Of a stretch of DNA of 20,255 nt, positions 758 through 11,196 are shown in pieces. Source of the stretch: a virus; IMG/VR virus record IMGVR_UViG_3300005600_000088, positions 1 to 20,255 of that record, one strand, 5' to 3'. Numbering within the stretch: the stretch's first letter is position 1; every line of letters starts with the position of its first letter. The position numbers were made by a program, and so were the translations under genes. The notes below the pieces were generated by a model. The model was not told where the DNA came from, ran no database searches, and worked only from the letters and a program-made list of their open reading frames with translations.

Positions 758-1768
758 ATGACCACCACCAAATACGGCGACAGCGGCGTATCCCCGCGTA
801 CAAACGTTTTCGCGGAGCGCCAGATGCTCAAGCATGCAGGGCCGCACATCGTGCTCGACAAGTTCGGCATGAACCGCCCGATGCCGAAAAACAAAACGCA
901 GACGATCAAGTTCCGTCGTCCGCGCGTCTTCACGGCGGCTGACACGCCGCTCGTCGAGGGCGTCACCCCGTCGGCGACGCAGTTCCGCTACGAAGACGTC
1001 TCGGCGACCGTCAAGCAGTACGGCATGCTGGTCGAAATCACCGACCACATCGAGGACACCCACGAAGACCCGGTGCTCAACGATGCGACGGAACAGGTCG
1101 GCGAGAACATCGGCCGCACCATCGAATCGCTGACCTACGGCGTTCTGAAGGCGGGCACCAACGTGTTCTACGCCAACGGTTCGGCACGGAACGCGGTCAA
1201 CACGCCGATCTCCAAGTCCAAGCAGCAGGCGGTCATCCGTTCGCTGAAGGCACAGAAGGCCATGAAGATCACCAAGGTCATGGACGGTTCGGTCAACTAC
1301 AAGACCAGCCCCATCGAGGCGAGCTTCATTGCCGTGGCGCACACGGATCTGGAAAGCGATATCCGGGCGCTTCCGGGCTTTGTGCCGGTGGCGGAATATG
1401 GCAACCGCAAGACGGTCCATGAATACGAGCTCGGCTCGGTCGACGACGTGCGTTACGTCTGCTCCGCCGATCTGGACCCGATCATCGATGCCGGCGGCGC
1501 CAAGTCCGGGTCGGGCACCGAAATGGTGTCGACGTCCGGCACGTCCGCCGACGTCTACCCGATCCTGTTCTTCGGCAAGGATGCCTACGGCACCGTGCCG
1601 CTGCGCGGGCAGGGCGCTGTCTCCCCGACGATCCTTCGTCCGGGCGTCCGCGACAAGTCCGACCCGCTCGGCCAGCGCGGCTACGTCGGTTTCAAGACGT
1701 GGTTCACCGCCGTCATTCTCAACCAGGCATGGATGGCCCGCCTCGAAGTCGCGGCGACTGCCCTCTGA
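758..1768 (+). CDS. Major capsid protein, N4-gp56 family
   Basis: This 336-residue protein is the main shell subunit of the head. It shows the pattern of the N4-gp56 major capsid family: an N-terminal arm, a PMPKNKTQTIKFRRPRVF segment followed by TPLVEGVTP (about residues 48-71), the VKQYGMLVEITDHIEDTHED stretch, an ENIGRTIESLTYGVL spine helix, a TNVFYANG loop, and a C-terminal domain with a GQRGYVGFKTWFTAVILN strand before the end. The length is somewhat below the roughly 400 residues of N4 gp56 but usual for its relatives. The ATG at 758 is preceded by GAGG at 744-747. The scaffold-like gene lies just upstream. A stable hairpin at 1777-1798 lies just downstream and may limit read-through or protect the message, giving a high capsid yield. 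Family assignment is by recognition of the sequence pattern. Confidence 0.92.
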   Translation: MTTTKYGDSGVSPRTNVFAERQMLKHAGPHIVLDKFGMNRPMPKNKTQTIKFRRPRVFTAADTPLVEGVTPSATQFRYEDVSATVKQYGMLVEITDHIEDTHEDPVLNDATEQVGENIGRTIESLTYGVLKAGTNVFYANGSARNAVNTPISKSKQQAVIRSLKAQKAMKITKVMDGSVNYKTSPIEASFIAVAHTDLESDIRALPGFVPVAEYGNRKTVHEYELGSVDDVRYVCSADLDPIIDAGGAKSGSGTEMVSTSGTSADVYPILFFGKDAYGTVPLRGQGAVSPTILRPGVRDKSDPLGQRGYVGFKTWFTAVILNQAWMARLEVAATAL

Positions 1769-1835: not shown

Positions 1836-2426
1836 ATGCAAAATACCGGACAATACGCGGGCATGTTTATCCGCGGCACCGGCGCCGCCGTTAACGTCGA
1901 ACTCGGGTGGGTGCCCGACTTTGTCGAAGTCATCAACGTGACCGACGGCGACAAAATCTACATGAACGCCATTCCGCAGGTGATCGCTTTCACCTCGGGC
2001 GGCACCGATGAAATCAAGGCCGGCGACAAGCTGCACGGCAACACCTCGGATGCGACCGCGACCATCAAGCAGGTCATCGTCGATTCCGGAACGTGGGCCG
2101 GCGGCGACGCGGCGGGCTGGGTCATCATCGACCGCACCACGCTGGTCAGCAATTTCCAGGGTGAAACGGCGTATCGCGAAGGCACCGACAGCGACGGCGA
2201 CGACAAGGTCACGCTGTCCGCTGCCGAAGATCAGGACGGTGTCGACATCGACACCGAGGTCACGGCAACGACCACCGACGCGACCAACTGCTACGCCTAC
2301 AGCGGTTCGGCTGCCTCCAACGCGCTGGGCTTCACCATCGGTTCGACCGTCAGCGAGGACGGCAAGCTGCTGTGGGTTAACGCCTACCGCGGCTACTTCG
2401 ACCTCGATCAGACGTCGGCACCGTAA
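1836..2426 (+). CDS. Putative capsid decoration or head accessory protein
   Basis: This 196-residue acidic protein has mostly beta-strand character and no enzyme motif. Lying directly after the major capsid gene and having its own AAAGGAAAAG ribosome site (about 1823-1832), it is a good candidate for an abundant head decoration protein. Residues 62-112 (GDKLHGNTSDATATI through NFQGET) match two modules in the large tail protein encoded at 5003-7078, for example DAAGWVII here against DAAGYIIL there and SDATATIKQVIVDSG against [15 protein letters not shown]. The same fold is therefore used at two places in the particle. The gene is flanked by two UUCG hairpins, so it may be a separately processed or controlled unit. 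The function is inferred from position; the shared module is seen in the sequence. Confidence 0.6.
   Translation: MQNTGQYAGMFIRGTGAAVNVELGWVPDFVEVINVTDGDKIYMNAIPQVIAFTSGGTDEIKAGDKLHGNTSDATATIKQVIVDSGTWAGGDAAGWVIIDRTTLVSNFQGETAYREGTDSDGDDKVTLSAAEDQDGVDIDTEVTATTTDATNCYAYSGSAASNALGFTIGSTVSEDGKLLWVNAYRGYFDLDQTSAP
2022..2168 (+). repeat. Beta module, copy A (in the post-capsid protein)
   Basis: This segment encodes about 49 residues that align almost without gaps with the two modules in the tail protein at 5198-5422 and 5651-5872. The DNA shares an exact 13-base word (gacgcggcgggct, 2105-2117) with the second of these at 5765-5777. Confidence 0.75.
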
Positions 2427-2439
2427 GGGGCTGCCTGAC

Positions 2440-2461
2440 GGGCGGGGCTTCGGCCCCGCCC
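2440..2461 (+). terminator. Perfect UUCG-loop hairpin after the 196-residue gene
   Basis: A perfect 9-pair G/C-only stem (GGGCGGGGC / GCCCCGCCC) closes a UUCG loop. It lies 13 bases after the stop codon of the preceding gene and is followed by an A-rich stretch and the ribosome site of the next gene, with no T run. It is the twin of the hairpin at 1777-1798 in stem length and loop. A partial terminator or RNA-stability element is the likely role. Confidence 0.6.
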
Positions 2462-2487
2462 AAAGGCGGACATGAAAGGAAATCACC

Positions 2488-3024
2488 ATGACTGATTTTT
2501 CCACCACGAAACGAAAGCAGCTCGCCGGGTCTGCCGGGCGTGGCGACAAGCGCGCCCTTGAGGCCCTGCTGCGCGACCTCGTCGATTCCTATGACGGGCT
2601 TTCCAGTACGGAACTCGGCTTCCTCGACGGCGTCACGGCGGGGACGGTAACGGCATCGAAAGCCGTTGTCGTCGATGCCAACAAGACCGTGGACGATCTT
2701 ACCGTGACCGATCTCAAGCGGCCCGTCACGGCGGCATCCACCGAAACCAACGTCGGGAACAGCGGAACCACCACGTTCTCGTCCACGGGCGGGCTTGCCT
2801 ACACCATGGACGCCCCGGCAGCCGGCGTGCGCGCCGTGCTGGCCTGCACGGACGGGTCCTCCATCAACACGCATACCGTGACGCTGGCCGCCGGCACGTT
2901 CGACGGCACGAACCACATCGCGACCTTCGATGCGGCGGCGGAGACGCTCGTCCTTGACGGGCTTTCGACGAGCCTCTTCACGATCTCGTCGAATGTCGGC
3001 TCCGTGGCGCTGTCGACGTCGTGA
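2488..3024 (+). CDS. Phage structural protein, head-fibre-like
   Basis: This 178-residue protein begins with a charged helical part (about residues 1-40) and continues as a Thr/Ser/Gly-rich beta-strand region. The stretch LDGVTAGTVTASKAVVVDAN (about residues 46-65) is a phrase found repeatedly in small phage virion proteins, often head fibres or decoration proteins. The rest (for example VTLAAGTFDGTNHIATFDAA) looks like a beta-sandwich. The ATG at 2488 has an AAAGGAAAT ribosome site at about 2475, the same leader type as the genes at 1836 and 3782. The stop codon overlaps the GTG start of the next gene by 4 bases. A virion location is likely; the precise place in the particle is not known. 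Confidence 0.65.
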   Translation: MTDFSTTKRKQLAGSAGRGDKRALEALLRDLVDSYDGLSSTELGFLDGVTAGTVTASKAVVVDANKTVDDLTVTDLKRPVTAASTETNVGNSGTTTFSSTGGLAYTMDAPAAGVRAVLACTDGSSINTHTVTLAAGTFDGTNHIATFDAAAETLVLDGLSTSLFTISSNVGSVALSTS

Positions 3025-3767
3025 AGCGGATTGTTCTCATCGGTACGGCGCGTCACTGGATCGACGCGCCGTTCACCGACCCCGATTGCGAAATCTGGGG
3101 CACGGGGACGACTGCGCTTGAAATCTGGCAAAAGCCGATCCCCGGCACGGACATCGTGCCGCGATGGGACGTCTGGTTTGATATCCACTGTGCCGGCGAG
3201 ATGGCGGCGAACGCCATCGACAACCCGCACTATGCGAAGTTTCTGAGCGCCGATCACGGCGACAAGCCCATCCTGACGGACAATCTGGGGCCGGACGCAG
3301 GCATTCCCAACGGCGTTCCGTACCCGAGAGAGGAAATGTTCGACGAGTTCGGAGAGCAGTTTTTCCGGTCCAGCTTCGATTATATGGCGGCGAACGCCAT
3401 TAAGGCGGCCAGTCTTCGCAAGCAGAAGGTCGTCGATGTCTATGGCTTCGATATGGCGCATGAGGGCGAATACGCCGACCAGCGCCCGAGCGCACAGCAT
3501 TTCATGTGGATCGCCGAAAAAGTGTACGGCGTCACGTTCAATCCATGCGCCGACAGCAAGCTAATGAATCACCCGCAGCCCTACGGCACGGAACCGGGGC
3601 CCATGCAGAAAGACATTCATGCGCGGGTTTCGATCCTGTCCGAGCGGCTGCGCGAGAAGCGCGCCCTGCACGCCCGCACAACGCAGGAAATCAATTACCT
3701 GGAGGGCTCGATCTATTCGCTCTCCGAACTCTGTATCGCCAACTATGGCGTCAAACCGAAACAGTGA
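3021..3767 (+). CDS. Conserved phage protein with Rossmann-like N-terminus, function unknown
   Basis: The 248-residue frame starts with GTG at 3021 inside GTGA, overlapping the previous stop, so its translation is probably coupled. The N-terminus (KRIVLIGTA, then CEIWGTGTT) looks like the first strand and loop of a Rossmann-type nucleotide-binding fold. Further conserved-looking points are DVWFDIH (50-56), VPYPREE (99-105), SSFDYMAANAI (117-127), VVDVYGFDMA (137-146) and EYADQRPSAQH (150-160). I recognise this pattern from unassigned proteins that sit among structural genes of many phages and resemble, distantly, sialyltransferase- or DUF115-like Rossmann proteins. The last 50 residues form a probable coiled coil. 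A sugar- or nucleotide-binding role is only a guess. The motifs are intact, with no sign of decay. Confidence 0.6.
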   Translation: MKRIVLIGTARHWIDAPFTDPDCEIWGTGTTALEIWQKPIPGTDIVPRWDVWFDIHCAGEMAANAIDNPHYAKFLSADHGDKPILTDNLGPDAGIPNGVPYPREEMFDEFGEQFFRSSFDYMAANAIKAASLRKQKVVDVYGFDMAHEGEYADQRPSAQHFMWIAEKVYGVTFNPCADSKLMNHPQPYGTEPGPMQKDIHARVSILSERLREKRALHARTTQEINYLEGSIYSLSELCIANYGVKPKQ

Positions 3768-3781
3768 AAGGAAATCGTCAC

Positions 3782-4279
3782 ATGACGGACACAACCGAAA
3801 CCATCGCACTCAGCAAGGCCAACAAGACGCAGTTGCAGGCGTTTGCCCGCGACCACCTCGGCATGACCCTTGAAGACACCATGACCAACGAGGCCATGCG
3901 CGCCAAGGTCCGTCAGGCCGCGAACCGCGATTCCATCCCCGTTGTTGCCGAACCGAATGCGCCTGTGCCCGCCGCGCCCGAGGGCGAAGTCGCCGCTGCG
4001 CCCATCAACGTGATCTCCGAGGATACGGAAAACGAGCGCGTTCGCATCATCATCTCCGCAACCGAGGAACCGGGTGGCGACGAGCCAGTGTTCGTCAGCG
4101 TCAACGGCAAGGCGCAATACGTCCCGCGCGGCGAGGAAGTGGAAATCCGCCGTCCGTACTACGAAGTGCTGATGAACGCCGAGACGTGGCGCTACGACAT
4201 GCGGCGCGACGCCAATGGCAATCCCGACGGCATGCTGCGTCGCAAGGTGCTGGCCTACCCGGTCGCCCGGGTCGCGTAG
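3782..4279 (+). CDS. Small virion-associated protein
   Basis: I take the ATG at 3782, which has an AAAGGAAAT ribosome site at about 3767-3775. The same frame is open further upstream, from 3506, but that part overlaps the preceding gene in another frame and is not needed. The resulting 165 residues have an N-terminal helical part (LSKANKTQLQAFARDHLGM) resembling a small SAP/HeH-type helix-turn-helix, an Ala/Pro linker (about 60-80), and a C-terminal beta part (PVFVSVNGKAQYVPRGEEVE, then a helix with YYEVLMNAE). This arrangement is usual for small proteins between capsid and adaptor genes in phages with N4-type capsids. A head or neck role is inferred from the context. Confidence 0.6.
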   Translation: MTDTTETIALSKANKTQLQAFARDHLGMTLEDTMTNEAMRAKVRQAANRDSIPVVAEPNAPVPAAPEGEVAAAPINVISEDTENERVRIIISATEEPGGDEPVFVSVNGKAQYVPRGEEVEIRRPYYEVLMNAETWRYDMRRDANGNPDGMLRRKVLAYPVARVA

Positions 4280-4292
4280 GAGCTGACCCGGG

Positions 4293-5006
4293 ATGTCCAA
4301 GACCTACCTTCAGCTTTGTCAGGATGCGGCCCGCGAAAGCGGGACCGTGTCCGGCACGCTGCCGACCAGCGTCTCCGGGCAGACGGGGCGGCTGCTGAAG
4401 TTCGTCAAGTGGGTCGCCGCAGCCTACGAGGAAATCCAGAACATGGAGGAGTCGTGGCGCTGGCTGCGCACCGAGTTTACCGGCGAGATCACATCCGGCA
4501 CGGCGCGCTATACCGATTCCAGCTTCACGCTCACCCGCTGGGCGCAGTGGATCACCGACGAGAACGTGGATGGACTCGAAGGCGAATACGCCATGTCGCT
4601 CTACAAGACAGCGACCGGCGCGTCCGACGAAGGCCCAATCCGTGAAATCCCGTGGAACGTCTTTGTCGCGATGTACGTGCGAGGTTCTCACGACAACGTC
4701 AGGCCCGTTCATTATGCCATATCGCCCGCAGGTGAGCTTTGCTTCGGACCAACGCCCGACGCGACGTATACGGTGCGGGGTGAGTACGTGAAGGGCCCAC
4801 AGACCCTTTCCGCCAACGACGACACCCCGGAAATGCCCGGCCGCTTCCATGACCTGATCTATCACTATGCCCTGATCCTCATGGCCGAGCATGACGAAGC
4901 GCCGCTGCACATCGCCACCAACCAGCGCCGCTATCGCCAACTGATGGATGCGCTGCGCCGCGACCAGCTTCCGCGACTCTACGACGCATCGGGGCCGATC
5001 GCATGA
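4293..5006 (+). CDS. Head-tail adaptor protein, SU10/gp4-like
   Basis: This 237-residue protein begins with a helix (TYLQLCQDAARESG), then GQTGRLLKFVKWVAAAYEEIQN and the phrase MEESWRWLRTEF. This order is typical of podovirus adaptor or upper tail tubular proteins of the phage SU10 type. A beta-rich middle (SFTLTRWAQWI, HYAISPAGELCFGPTPDATYTVRGEY) and a C-terminal helix pair with a Tyr/His-rich start (DLIYHYALILMAEHDEAP) complete the fold. It would form a ring of twelve under the portal and join it to the nozzle. The ATG lies 13 bases after the previous stop. Its own stop overlaps the start of the large tail gene by ATGA, so the two tail parts are translated together. Confidence 0.82.
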   Translation: MSKTYLQLCQDAARESGTVSGTLPTSVSGQTGRLLKFVKWVAAAYEEIQNMEESWRWLRTEFTGEITSGTARYTDSSFTLTRWAQWITDENVDGLEGEYAMSLYKTATGASDEGPIREIPWNVFVAMYVRGSHDNVRPVHYAISPAGELCFGPTPDATYTVRGEYVKGPQTLSANDDTPEMPGRFHDLIYHYALILMAEHDEAPLHIATNQRRYRQLMDALRRDQLPRLYDASGPIA

Positions 5007-7078
5007 GCCAGATGACGGAACATTTCCCGCTGCAAGGCGGTCTCGACCTGATCACCCCGGCGATCCGCACGCCGGCCGGGCGGGTGATTTCGGGCGTCAA
5101 CTACGAACCCGTGCCGCGCGGCTATCGCCGCTACCAGGGGCATGAGCGCTATGACGGCCAGCCCCGCCCATCCGATGCGTCCTACTGGGTGTTGAATTTC
5201 GACGCGGGAACCGCCGCCATCAGCGAGGATGACACGGTCACGGGCGCAACGTCAGGCGCGACAGGGAAGGCGCTGATCGACGCGGTGATCTCGACGGGGT
5301 CGTATGTCGGCAATGACGCGGCGGGATATCTTGTCCTGACCGGCGTATCCGGAACATTTCAGGACGATGAGAACCTGCAGGTCTCGGCGGCAACCAAGAG
5401 CGTCGCCAACGGCACCGCCACTTCACGCGGGGCACTCACGGACGCCAATGATTCCACATGGCTGCAGGATGCTATCGAAACCGCACGCGCGTTGATCGCC
5501 AAGCCGACAGGGTCGGGCAAAATCCGCGGCGTATGGGTCTACAGCGGCACGGTCTATTGTTTCCGGGACAATGCCGGCGGCACGGCCGGGCAGATGTATA
5601 AATCAACCTCGTCGGGGTGGTCGCTTGTGGATCTCGGCGCGCAGATCGACTTCGATGCCGGTACGGCGGCATTTACCGAGGACGATACCCTGACCGGCGG
5701 TACGTCCGGGGCGACGGCGACCATCGAGCGTATCATCGTCCAGTCCGGGTCATGGGATGACAATGACGCGGCGGGCTATATCATCCTGTCGTCGGTCTCG
5801 GGGACGTTCCAGAACAACGAGACAATTACCGACGGCGTGAGCGGCAGCGCAACGGCGAACGGCGCCAACGCCGCAATCACGCTGCCCGCAGGTGGCCGTT
5901 ACGAGTTCCGCAACCATAACTTCTACGGGGCATCGGACTTGCGCCGCATGTACGGCGTAAACGGCGTTGGATACGGCTTCGAGTTCGACGGCACGGTGTT
6001 CGTGCCGATCCGCACCGGCATGTCGAGCGACACGCCCGCGCACCTGTCCATCCACAAGAACCACCTGTTCTACAGCTTCGCCGGCGGGTCGGTGCAGTTC
6101 TCGGGTACGGGCAATCCGTATTCATGGTCCGTGGTGCTCGGCGCCGGCGAGATCGGTCTGGGCGAGGAAGTCACCGGGTTTCTCTCGGACAATGTCGGCG
6201 TGCTCAACATCTTCGGGCGCAACAAGGTTGCCGTGCTGTACGGCAGCGATTCCGACGACTGGGTGCTCGAGTACCTGGCCGATGATGCCGGCGGCATCGC
6301 GTGGACGATCCAGAAAATCGGCCTTCCGACCTATGTCGATGACCGGGGCGTGCGTACTCTGCGCACCACGCAGGCGTATGGCGACTTCCGCCTCGGCACC
6401 ATCACTCAGATGGTCGAGCCGATCTTCACGGAAAAGCGCAAGAACGGTGTCGCCGCGCTGTCGTCCGCCCGTGTCCGCGCCAAGGATCAATACCGCCTGT
6501 TCTGGAACGACGGCACGGGGCTGATTGTCTATCTCGGACGCAAGAGCCCGGAATGCATGGTCGTCGACTTCGGCGACACCAACGTTGAGTGCATTTGCTC
6601 CGCCGAAGATTCCAGCGGTGACGAGGTTCTTTACTTCGGCACCAATGACGGATGGGTCATGCAGATGGACAAGGGGACCAGCTTCGACGGCACCGCCATT
6701 GCCGCCTTTGTCCGTCTGCCGTTCAACCACGTCGGCAGCCCGACGCAGAACAAGCGTTGGCACAAGGCGACATTGGAAGCGGACGTTGCGGCGAGCACGG
6801 CGCTCAGCTTCACCGTTGAATACGGGTACGCCAACCCTTTCCAGCCGCCGTCGATCGAGCAGTCCTTCGGCGTCACCGGGTCGGGCGGGTTCTGGGACGA
6901 AAGCGACGACTGGGATGATTTCTTCTGGGATAGCGCCGTCGAGGGTACGGCGGAAGCGCATATTGACGGGTTCGGCACCAACATGAGCCTCGCGATCATC
7001 TCCGAGGCCGCCTACGAGGAGCCGCACACCCTGCATGGACTGACCCTTCACTTCTCCTACAGAGGGCTGGCACGATGA
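5003..7078 (+). CDS. Tail nozzle / tubular tail protein with duplicated beta modules
   Basis: This 691-residue protein follows the adaptor gene with an ATGA overlap, the position of the nozzle or lower tubular protein in short-tailed phages. The N-terminus ([23 protein letters not shown]) and the body ([53 protein letters not shown], then repeated blade-like strands) suggest a beta-propeller channel. The C-terminal part ([14 protein letters not shown], a Trp/Asp-rich [14 protein letters not shown] run, then [12 protein letters not shown]) is a jelly-roll-like end. Two related insertions of about 70 residues, at 66-140 and 217-290, share FDAGTAA, SGAT, NDAAGY and VSGTFQ. They also resemble residues 62-112 of the protein encoded at 1836. 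The protein probably forms the exit channel for DNA; the inserted modules would decorate its outside. Confidence 0.75.
5198..5422 (+). repeat. Beta module, copy B (first in the tail protein)
   Basis: It encodes residues 66-140 of the tail protein, starting [20 protein letters not shown]. It shares an exact 15-base word (caatgacgcggcggg, 5311-5325) with copy C at 5761-5775, but the rest has diverged, so the duplication is old. Confidence 0.8.
5651..5872 (+). repeat. Beta module, copy C (second in the tail protein)
   Basis: It encodes residues 217-290, starting [20 protein letters not shown]. It aligns with copy B over its whole length and is the closer match to copy A in the post-capsid protein ([15 protein letters not shown] against SDATATIKQVIVDSG). 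Confidence 0.8.
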
Positions 7079-10187: not shown

Positions 10188-10694
10188 ATGGCATACAACG
10201 CAACGACCGGCAAATGGGACGAGGAAGACGCCACCGTATCAACGCGCGTCACCGGACTCATGTCCAAGAACAGCCCGTTCATGCAGCAAGCCAAGACTCA
10301 GGCAACAAAGGCGTCGAACCGGCGCGGGCTGATGAACTCCAGTATGGCGGTAACGGCGGGGCTGGACTCCGGCTACCGGGCTGCGGTGCCGATCGCCTCG
10401 CAGGACGCCTCGCAGGCGCACCAGCGCAACATGCAGGAACGCGACATCGCCAATCAGACCAACATTGCGGGCATGAACATCGCCGCGCACGATCGCGAGA
10501 AATCGGCCTCGATGGCGACCGCGTTGGAAAACAGCTATGCCGAAATGTTCCGCACCATCGGGCAGCAGCATGAGCTGCCTTCCGATGTTCGCGACAAGTA
10601 TTTGGCCCATATCGGCGCCATCAGGGACAGCAATATGAACCTGGTGTCTCAGATGTATGGCATCCAGCTCACATGGGATTCTCCGGAGATATAG
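10188..10694 (+). CDS. Probable internal virion / ejection protein
   Basis: This 168-residue helical protein starts 4 bases after the previous stop. It contains the phrase NRRGLMNSSMAVTAGLDSGYRAAVPIASQDA (in parts, about residues 45-76), which I recognise from small virion-internal proteins of podovirus-like phages, often encoded with other ejected proteins and a polyvalent protein. The centre is rich in Gln, Asn and Ala (HQRNMQERDIANQTNIAGMN); the C-terminal part is amphipathic (LENSYAEMFRTIGQQHELP). The exact function is unknown. Such proteins are thought to leave with the DNA and to help it cross the cell envelope. Confidence 0.6.
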   Translation: MAYNATTGKWDEEDATVSTRVTGLMSKNSPFMQQAKTQATKASNRRGLMNSSMAVTAGLDSGYRAAVPIASQDASQAHQRNMQERDIANQTNIAGMNIAAHDREKSASMATALENSYAEMFRTIGQQHELPSDVRDKYLAHIGAIRDSNMNLVSQMYGIQLTWDSPEI

Positions 10695-10695
10695 C

Positions 10696-11196
10696 ATGAG
10701 CCTGAATAAAATTCGCGAGCATCTCGAATATCTGCCGGACACGGGCCTATTTGTGTGCCGAAAGCAATACTCAAACAAGGTGCCGGTGGGAGCCGTCGCC
10801 GGAAGCGTCAACGCGCGAGGATATATCGATATTAGGTTTATGAATGTGCGCTACTACGGGCATCGACTGGCGTGGTGGTGGGTTCATGGCAAAATGCCAG
10901 AGTCCGAGGTCGACCACATCGACGGCAATCCGAGCAACAACGCGATATCCAACCTTCGCCCTGCCAAGCGAGGGAGCAACGTCGCGAACGCGCCGCGCCG
11001 AAAAGCGAGCGGGTTCAAGGGCGTCTATCGTGACAGACGCACAGGCCGGTGGGCAGCCAAGGTTAGGGCCAACTACAAGCAGTTTCATCTTGGCGTATTC
11101 GACAACGAAAAGGATGCAGCGCGCGCCTACGATGCGGCGGCAATCAGGCACTTCGGAGAGTTTGCGCGCCTCAACTTCCCAAGGAGGGCGCTATGA
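10696..11196 (+). CDS. HNH homing endonuclease with AP2 DNA-binding domain
   Basis: I choose the ATG at 10696, one base after the previous stop; the frame is open to an earlier ATG at 10657, but that would overlap the upstream gene. The 166 residues have an N-terminal NUMOD/HNH-associated part, RLAWWWVHG (57-65), the HNH core DHIDGNPSNNAISNLR (73-88) with the H74, N82 and N86 positions typical of the HNH_3 group, and an AP2 domain (about 105-160: GFKGVYRDRRTGRWAAKV, then LGVFDNEKDAARAYDAAA and LNFP). Such free-standing enzymes cut phage DNA that lacks them and thereby spread. G+C is about 50% in its first lines (30 of 60 bases at 10681-10740 and 10801-10860), well below its neighbours, in agreement with recent arrival. 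Confidence 0.9.
   Translation: MSLNKIREHLEYLPDTGLFVCRKQYSNKVPVGAVAGSVNARGYIDIRFMNVRYYGHRLAWWWVHGKMPESEVDHIDGNPSNNAISNLRPAKRGSNVANAPRRKASGFKGVYRDRRTGRWAAKVRANYKQFHLGVFDNEKDAARAYDAAAIRHFGEFARLNFPRRAL
11181..11187 (+). promoter_or_regulatory. Ribosome site AAGGAGG of the acetyltransferase gene, inside the HNH gene
   Basis: AAGGAGG lies 5 bases before the ATG at 11193 and codes for the last residues of the HNH protein. The inserted endonuclease gene therefore supplies, or has preserved, the translation signal of the next gene. Confidence 0.65.

Follow-up and report, generated by a model that had tools for sequence, protein, structure and literature searches.

Reuse of one small surface domain across different parts of a virion is known mainly for immunoglobulin-like (Ig-like) folds. 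Sections of PMC7602432 place phage Ig-like domains on the head (decoration proteins and major components), among tail components, and in baseplate wedge initiators and fibres, frequently as exposed add-ons, and give the accessory copies on other phages a role in adhesion or stability (PMC7602432). In phage SU10, as described in part of PMC9509320, Ig-like domains of the nozzle protein gp17 are inserted between propeller blades 2 and 3, where they make up the tail tip and change their arrangement during delivery (PMC9509320). The present analysis concerns a second domain of this kind, apparently unnamed in Pfam, in the virus record IMGVR_UViG_3300005600_000088 (20,255 bases, positions 1 to 20,255, hereafter the window). 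The initial annotation of the window had claimed that the same beta module occurs once beside the capsid gene and twice in a 691-residue tail protein, and had suggested that it moved between genes of one phage. We regard it as likely that the module is an independent accessory beta-barrel, added on in loops of virion proteins, once in the product of the gene beside the capsid gene (post-capsid protein) and twice in the tail nozzle, and doing an Ig-like type of job.

A start-to-end scan of the window at E≤10 found exactly three copies of the module, one in the post-capsid protein (head copy) and two in the tail protein (T1 and T2), as had been claimed. Comparison of their family profiles with hhalign gave a probability of 99.4% (E 2.4e-21) for head and T1, 99.85% (E 9.9e-31) for head and T2, and 99.7% (E 9.5e-27) for T1 and T2, all significant against column-shuffled controls (20 per pair), whose best probabilities were 15.0%, 1.9% and 3.7%, respectively. 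The whole head family aligned with the whole nozzle family at 99.5% (E 4.1e-23) over 76 columns, residues 45-123 of the head protein falling onto residues 211-286 of the nozzle. As single sequences, head/T2 and T1/T2 scored far above their shuffles (Smith-Waterman 116 and 192, shuffle maxima 64 and 70; 5000 shuffles per segment) and head/T1 barely so (75, maximum 71). This last score is what could be said for a chance or compositional likeness among beta proteins rich in Gly, Ser, Thr and Asp, a reading whose probability is next to nil against the profile E values, the shuffled-column controls and a strand register that agrees across two separate structure predictions; chance resemblance was ruled out by the comparison with the column-shuffled controls. 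Judged by their profiles, the head segment, T1 and T2 are homologous. The homology thus stood, whereas the head segment first proposed, residues 62-112, turned out to be too short. The features concerned and the limits adopted here are:

1836..2426, plus strand: post-capsid protein, 196 residues, beta-rich core with an inserted barrel, probable head decoration protein from its gene position beside the capsid gene
1971..2189, plus strand: barrel module, head copy, residues ~46-118, placed by AlphaFold2 (AF2) strands (block predicted local distance difference test score, pLDDT, 83-93); missing from 14 of 37 homologues
5003..7078, plus strand: tail nozzle/hub protein, 691 residues, predicted platform, beta-propeller and two inserted barrels (AF2, Foldseek, VIA)
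5183..5428, plus strand: barrel module T1, residues ~61-142, placed by strand register against the head copy
5636..5884, plus strand: barrel module T2, residues ~212-294, placed in the same way

Structure prediction brought the three copies into register, as compared by strand position rather than by direct superposition of coordinates. In the AF2 model of the post-capsid protein (pLDDT 82.6) the strands of the module lie at residues 48-54, 65-68, 74-84, 93-104 and 110-114. Those of T1 (61-69, 78-81, 87-90 with 95-98, 106-116 and 124-127) follow the head copy at +13 to within 2 residues, and those of T2 (213-222, 229-232, 238-248, 256-266 and 274-276) at +164 with an offset of a few residues at the strand ends. 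Differing predicted structures and a lack of significant profile similarity, the two outcomes named beforehand as speaking against the shared module, were not seen. The shared segment is therefore predicted to be one small independent beta-barrel of about 70-80 residues, a class assignment that is provisional. The nearest solved structures to residues 45-134 of the head model in VIA-align were residues 766-846 of T4-type baseplate proteins (5hx2, 9f4a; Z 7.7 and 7.3, 76 residues, 2.6-2.9 Å), weak values at 10-13% identity, and a Z below 8 may mean merely a common arrangement. The alignment tool printed no name for these chains (5hx2_A and 9f4a_A0), which we take to be gp7 from their length. 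Barrel domains of EF-Tu came next at a weak Z of about 6, and among the predicted viral structures matching the module several are annotated as baseplate wedge proteins. Foldseek searches of the PDB with the head model returned no match at E≤0.001, the best being galactose-oxidase homologues at E 0.01. PDB sequence searches with the post-capsid protein, the tail protein, the head core and the module profile gave no significant match, the best rows for the module profile being antibody chains at E 0.12 or worse. None of 34 module sequences matched any Pfam family at E≤0.01; in PHROG, 18 of them matched phrog_358 and nine phrog_9851 (tail fibre). The module thus resembles the phage Ig-like domains as a small beta domain reused across several virion parts. 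It differs from them in having no match to a Pfam, Ig or Big family, in being inserted here in loops, and in its listed structural neighbours, which are T4 gp7-type and EF-Tu barrels, a list in which missing Ig rows exclude nothing.

The protein that carries T1 and T2 had been called a tail protein, and the prediction bears this out. Its AF2 model (pLDDT 89.9, predicted template modelling score 0.87) matched the SU10 nozzle in Foldseek at E 2.0e-15, and in VIA the nozzles of phage Pa223 (Z 30.3, 441 residues, 2.8 Å), SU10 gp17 (Z 28.3, 450 residues, 3.0 Å) and P22 (Z 24.6), which on the model makes it a platform/beta-propeller nozzle of the SU10/P22 type. Its gene directly follows the adaptor gene (PF24175), with an overlap of 4 bases. 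With blades numbered by strand order rather than by superposition, T1 most likely lies between propeller blades 1 and 2 and T2 between blades 2 and 3. This protein and gp17 are structurally matching nozzles with extra domains set into the propeller, T2 most likely at the site used by SU10; gp17 differs in carrying four Ig-like nozzle domains, in place of one barrel at each of two sites. Two modules were present in 46 of 51 long nozzle rows, a sample biased towards the module, and the nozzles of L119, L120 and L122 have a single one at residues 123-175 of 615-621. The propeller is also matched by phrog_5107 ('amidase, lysis'), at 5837-7066 in the window (residues 279-688 of 691, E 2e-19) and at 1933-3996 in L020 (E 6.4e-129); the 'amidase' label, which many deposited phage records also bear at the nozzle gene, is probably wrong.

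In the post-capsid protein the barrel interrupts a core of about 105 residues that also exists without it. The homologues of this protein come in two forms, of about 180-200 residues when the module is present and about 105-120 when it is absent; 23 of the 37 distinct homologues have the module and 14 lack it, two of these matching in the C part only. Among the 36 homologues with a capsid gene in the same locus, the post-capsid gene starts at -39 to +77 bases relative to where the capsid open reading frame (ORF) ends in 31 and at 423-652 bases in the other five, always on the same strand. This position adjoining the major capsid gene makes it a probable head decoration protein. No named family and no known decoration family was found for it in Pfam or PHROG, and a plain sequence search against 50,697 phage records returned nothing; phrog_24898 ('tail fiber protein') was matched by four of 12 module-less homologues, at a best E of 6.5e-5.

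The history of the module was read from several trees. The head alignment held 33 of the 37 distinct homologues, two truncated sequences and the two matching in the C part only being left out. In the tree of the head core, with the module columns removed, sequences with and without the module fell on the two sides of a single branch (97/88), that is, one change. On the capsid tree, built from 31 rows (the module is present in 20 and absent from 11; left out were L019, L046, L123 and L157 as well as truncated or duplicate loci), the presence of the module needs seven changes, at least six of them forced by well-supported branches. Because one change in the core tree stands against seven in the capsid tree, the simplest reading is that the head slot underwent one old gain or loss, after which the whole gene would have been swapped between related phages. 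In a module tree by slot (27 phages, of which 16 have the head module and 11 lack it) the modules grouped mostly by slot. The nearest relative of the head module was the head module of another phage in 15 of 16 cases, the T2 of another phage in one and the tail module of its own phage in none, and in the 13 phages that possess T2 the identity of head to T2 modules averaged 0.436 inside a genome as against 0.442 across genomes. The separation of the head group is imperfect, in that the T1 of L156 and, as a sister pair, the T2 copies of L103/L114 group with it. Head modules resemble T2 copies of the 'FTSGGT' type; as the T2 of the window is of the 'FDAGTAAF' type, in a different T2 clade, its head copy probably does not derive from its present T2.

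These results do not support the claim that the module moved between genes of one phage. The part of that interpretation that the profiles and the predicted secondary structure uphold is one fold common to a head-associated and a tail protein. The presence of three copies inside one 20 kb record could speak for recent copying within one genome, from tail gene to head gene or the reverse, in this phage or its close kin, but such copying is very improbable. At the DNA level the three copies are 62-65% identical and their longest common runs span just 11-15 bases, all 16 head modules have their nearest relative in another phage with identities no higher within genomes than between them, and the T2 of the window lies outside the T2 clade closest to the head modules. 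Recent intragenomic copying was ruled out by the slot-wise grouping, the within- and between-genome identities and the DNA identity. The initial finding was therefore correct in substance, and its mechanism less exotic: old and slot-bound, with no recent jump inside one phage. A wider tree, restricted to 161 modules at E<1e-8 in 22 contexts with labels that we assigned, needed 34 context changes against a mean of 82 after shuffling, which suggests that the module was mostly inherited in place and occasionally moved. On its few columns the head group needs four changes, so that the slot tree and the core tree are instead the basis for a single head-slot origin.

A survey of other phages extended the picture to decoration, nozzle and fibre proteins, among others. 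Pattern matching in viral contigs gave 599 hits, out of which at least 96 stretches could be confirmed; in bacterial genome contigs none of 93 pattern stretches was confirmed as encoding a relative. In loci up to L177 the module occurs in 179 distinct ORFs, 66 of them nozzle, 18 nozzle-like, 23 head and 72 other, and the 90 nozzle-like and other ORFs formed 36 clusters after the modules were masked. A plain sequence search with the T2 segment found BK063669 as its sole match and no plasmid match. Searching by tblastn with a single copy understates the spread, because the module hidden Markov model (HMM) finds the module in nozzles that it missed, those of Vibrio phage 1.232.O, Escherichia phage PTXU04 and ctsTn925. 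Lambda gpD-type decoration proteins (PF02924; L143, L164 and L153) form a further head decoration family, beside the probable one of the post-capsid protein, into which this module is inserted, and differ from that protein in an unrelated core, in belonging to other phages and in two other insertion sites. As these sites lie 31 residues apart, the module probably entered the gpD family at least twice. It was also found in a GP4-type podophage fibre protein (PF23140 gp80, L140), in an adaptor-like protein (phrog_211), in a tail protein (phrog_5302) and in a protein family of up to 1,865 residues (phrog_358). The module thus recurs in unrelated virion proteins and is widespread in tailed phages; it would be a promiscuous exposed accessory domain inserted in loops. 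No description or name of the domain was found among the matches listed from the PMC open set, where the top 10 of 268 hits to the motif string were unrelated text. A curated family for the module would also put a name to many virion proteins from environmental phages that are so far unknown.

If the module is an accessory add-on, a barrel spliced into a loop would be displayed without disturbing the host fold and would be exposed on the particle. By analogy with phage Ig-like domains, its most likely job would be that of a dispensable add-on through which the particle gains weak multivalent contact with the cell surface, additional stability, or both. The barrel itself would change protein context rarely, the head gene being swapped between related phages. 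Head cores without the module and some module-less nozzles of other phages fit the profile of such a dispensable surface add-on. Another explanation, possible though we would not expect it, is that the module serves in assembly or stabilisation, making the hexameric nozzle longer and firmer and cementing the capsomers of the head, by way of contacts between subunits within the particle. The tail-tip domains of SU10, which rearrange in delivery according to the part of PMC9509320 cited above, would suit this explanation, as would conserved positions that look structural and a nearest solved domain that comes from a structural part, the T4-type baseplate protein. It fits less well with a head module gained or lost between related capsids (the seven changes of the capsid tree), which suits a dispensable add-on, and with the occurrence of the same barrel in proteins of different families and presumably different partners. 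Between weak multivalent surface contact and a purely structural role the former is somewhat likelier, and present data do not separate them. A bolder and rather unlikely proposal makes the barrel a ligand-binding cassette whose SG[TS]W..GDAAG hairpin binds one common cell-surface ligand, so that head and tail tip would be coated alike and selection would repeatedly drive its insertion into free surface loops. That hairpin is conserved in the head core, nozzle and gpD-type contexts, and a G-x-aromatic pattern, loose enough to permit matches elsewhere in the segment, occurs in 21 of 21 head, 36 of 36 T1 and 40 of 40 T2 rows.

Several points weigh against the add-on reading. The most conserved residues of the module (G, T, S, A, F and E) appear structural and any binding site is putative; the structural matches of the barrel are weak, with Z below 8 and no Foldseek PDB match at E≤0.001, and its class is provisional for that reason. 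The location of the post-capsid protein on the capsid is putative, and the trees were built on 66-79 columns. The module HMM gave no match on the nozzles of StenR_269 and HMO-2011, so nozzles, as far as sequence goes, work without the module. The surveyed loci were mostly fetched by the module's own patterns and show its breadth with biased frequencies. The add-on role can be tested on near-ideal natural comparisons, the head core with and without the module and one decoration family with two insertion sites.

Both module-bearing genes of the window sit inside a structural block that runs from the capsid gene through the post-capsid gene, small genes and an SU10-type adaptor gene to the tail protein, and an 11.3 kb contig (L001) encodes post-capsid and tail proteins identical to those of the window. 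The two remaining named members of the block are:

758..1768, plus strand: major capsid protein (N4/HK97-type), 336 residues (PF25209 Phage_capsid_4, E 3.2e-12; phrog_1357 major head protein, E 1.8e-62)
4293..5006, plus strand: SU10-type adaptor protein, 237 residues (PF24175 SU10_adaptor, E 1.2e-16)

Downstream of the virion genes, positions 10657-11196 encode a homing-type endonuclease in which HNH endonuclease and AP2 domains are fused (PF13392, E 1.7e-12; PF00847, E 2.4e-10). Some further observations concern module-bearing proteins of other phages. In L153 (5665-6393) and L164 (8319-9035) a protein of 239-243 residues carries the module alongside the module-bearing gpD-type decoration protein of the same phage. 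Of the two, the L153 protein alone is tail-terminator-like (phrog_4204, E 1.5e-6); should proteins of this kind be tail terminators, an unrelated phage type would show the head-and-tail pattern as well. At 5566-6723 of L140 the module apparently lies between two gp80-like stretches (PF23140). L077 (3506-4639), L079 and L080 contain a short form of the module, about 42 residues long and lacking the SGxW hairpin, whose copies overlap in tandem so that the motif ending one copy also starts the next.

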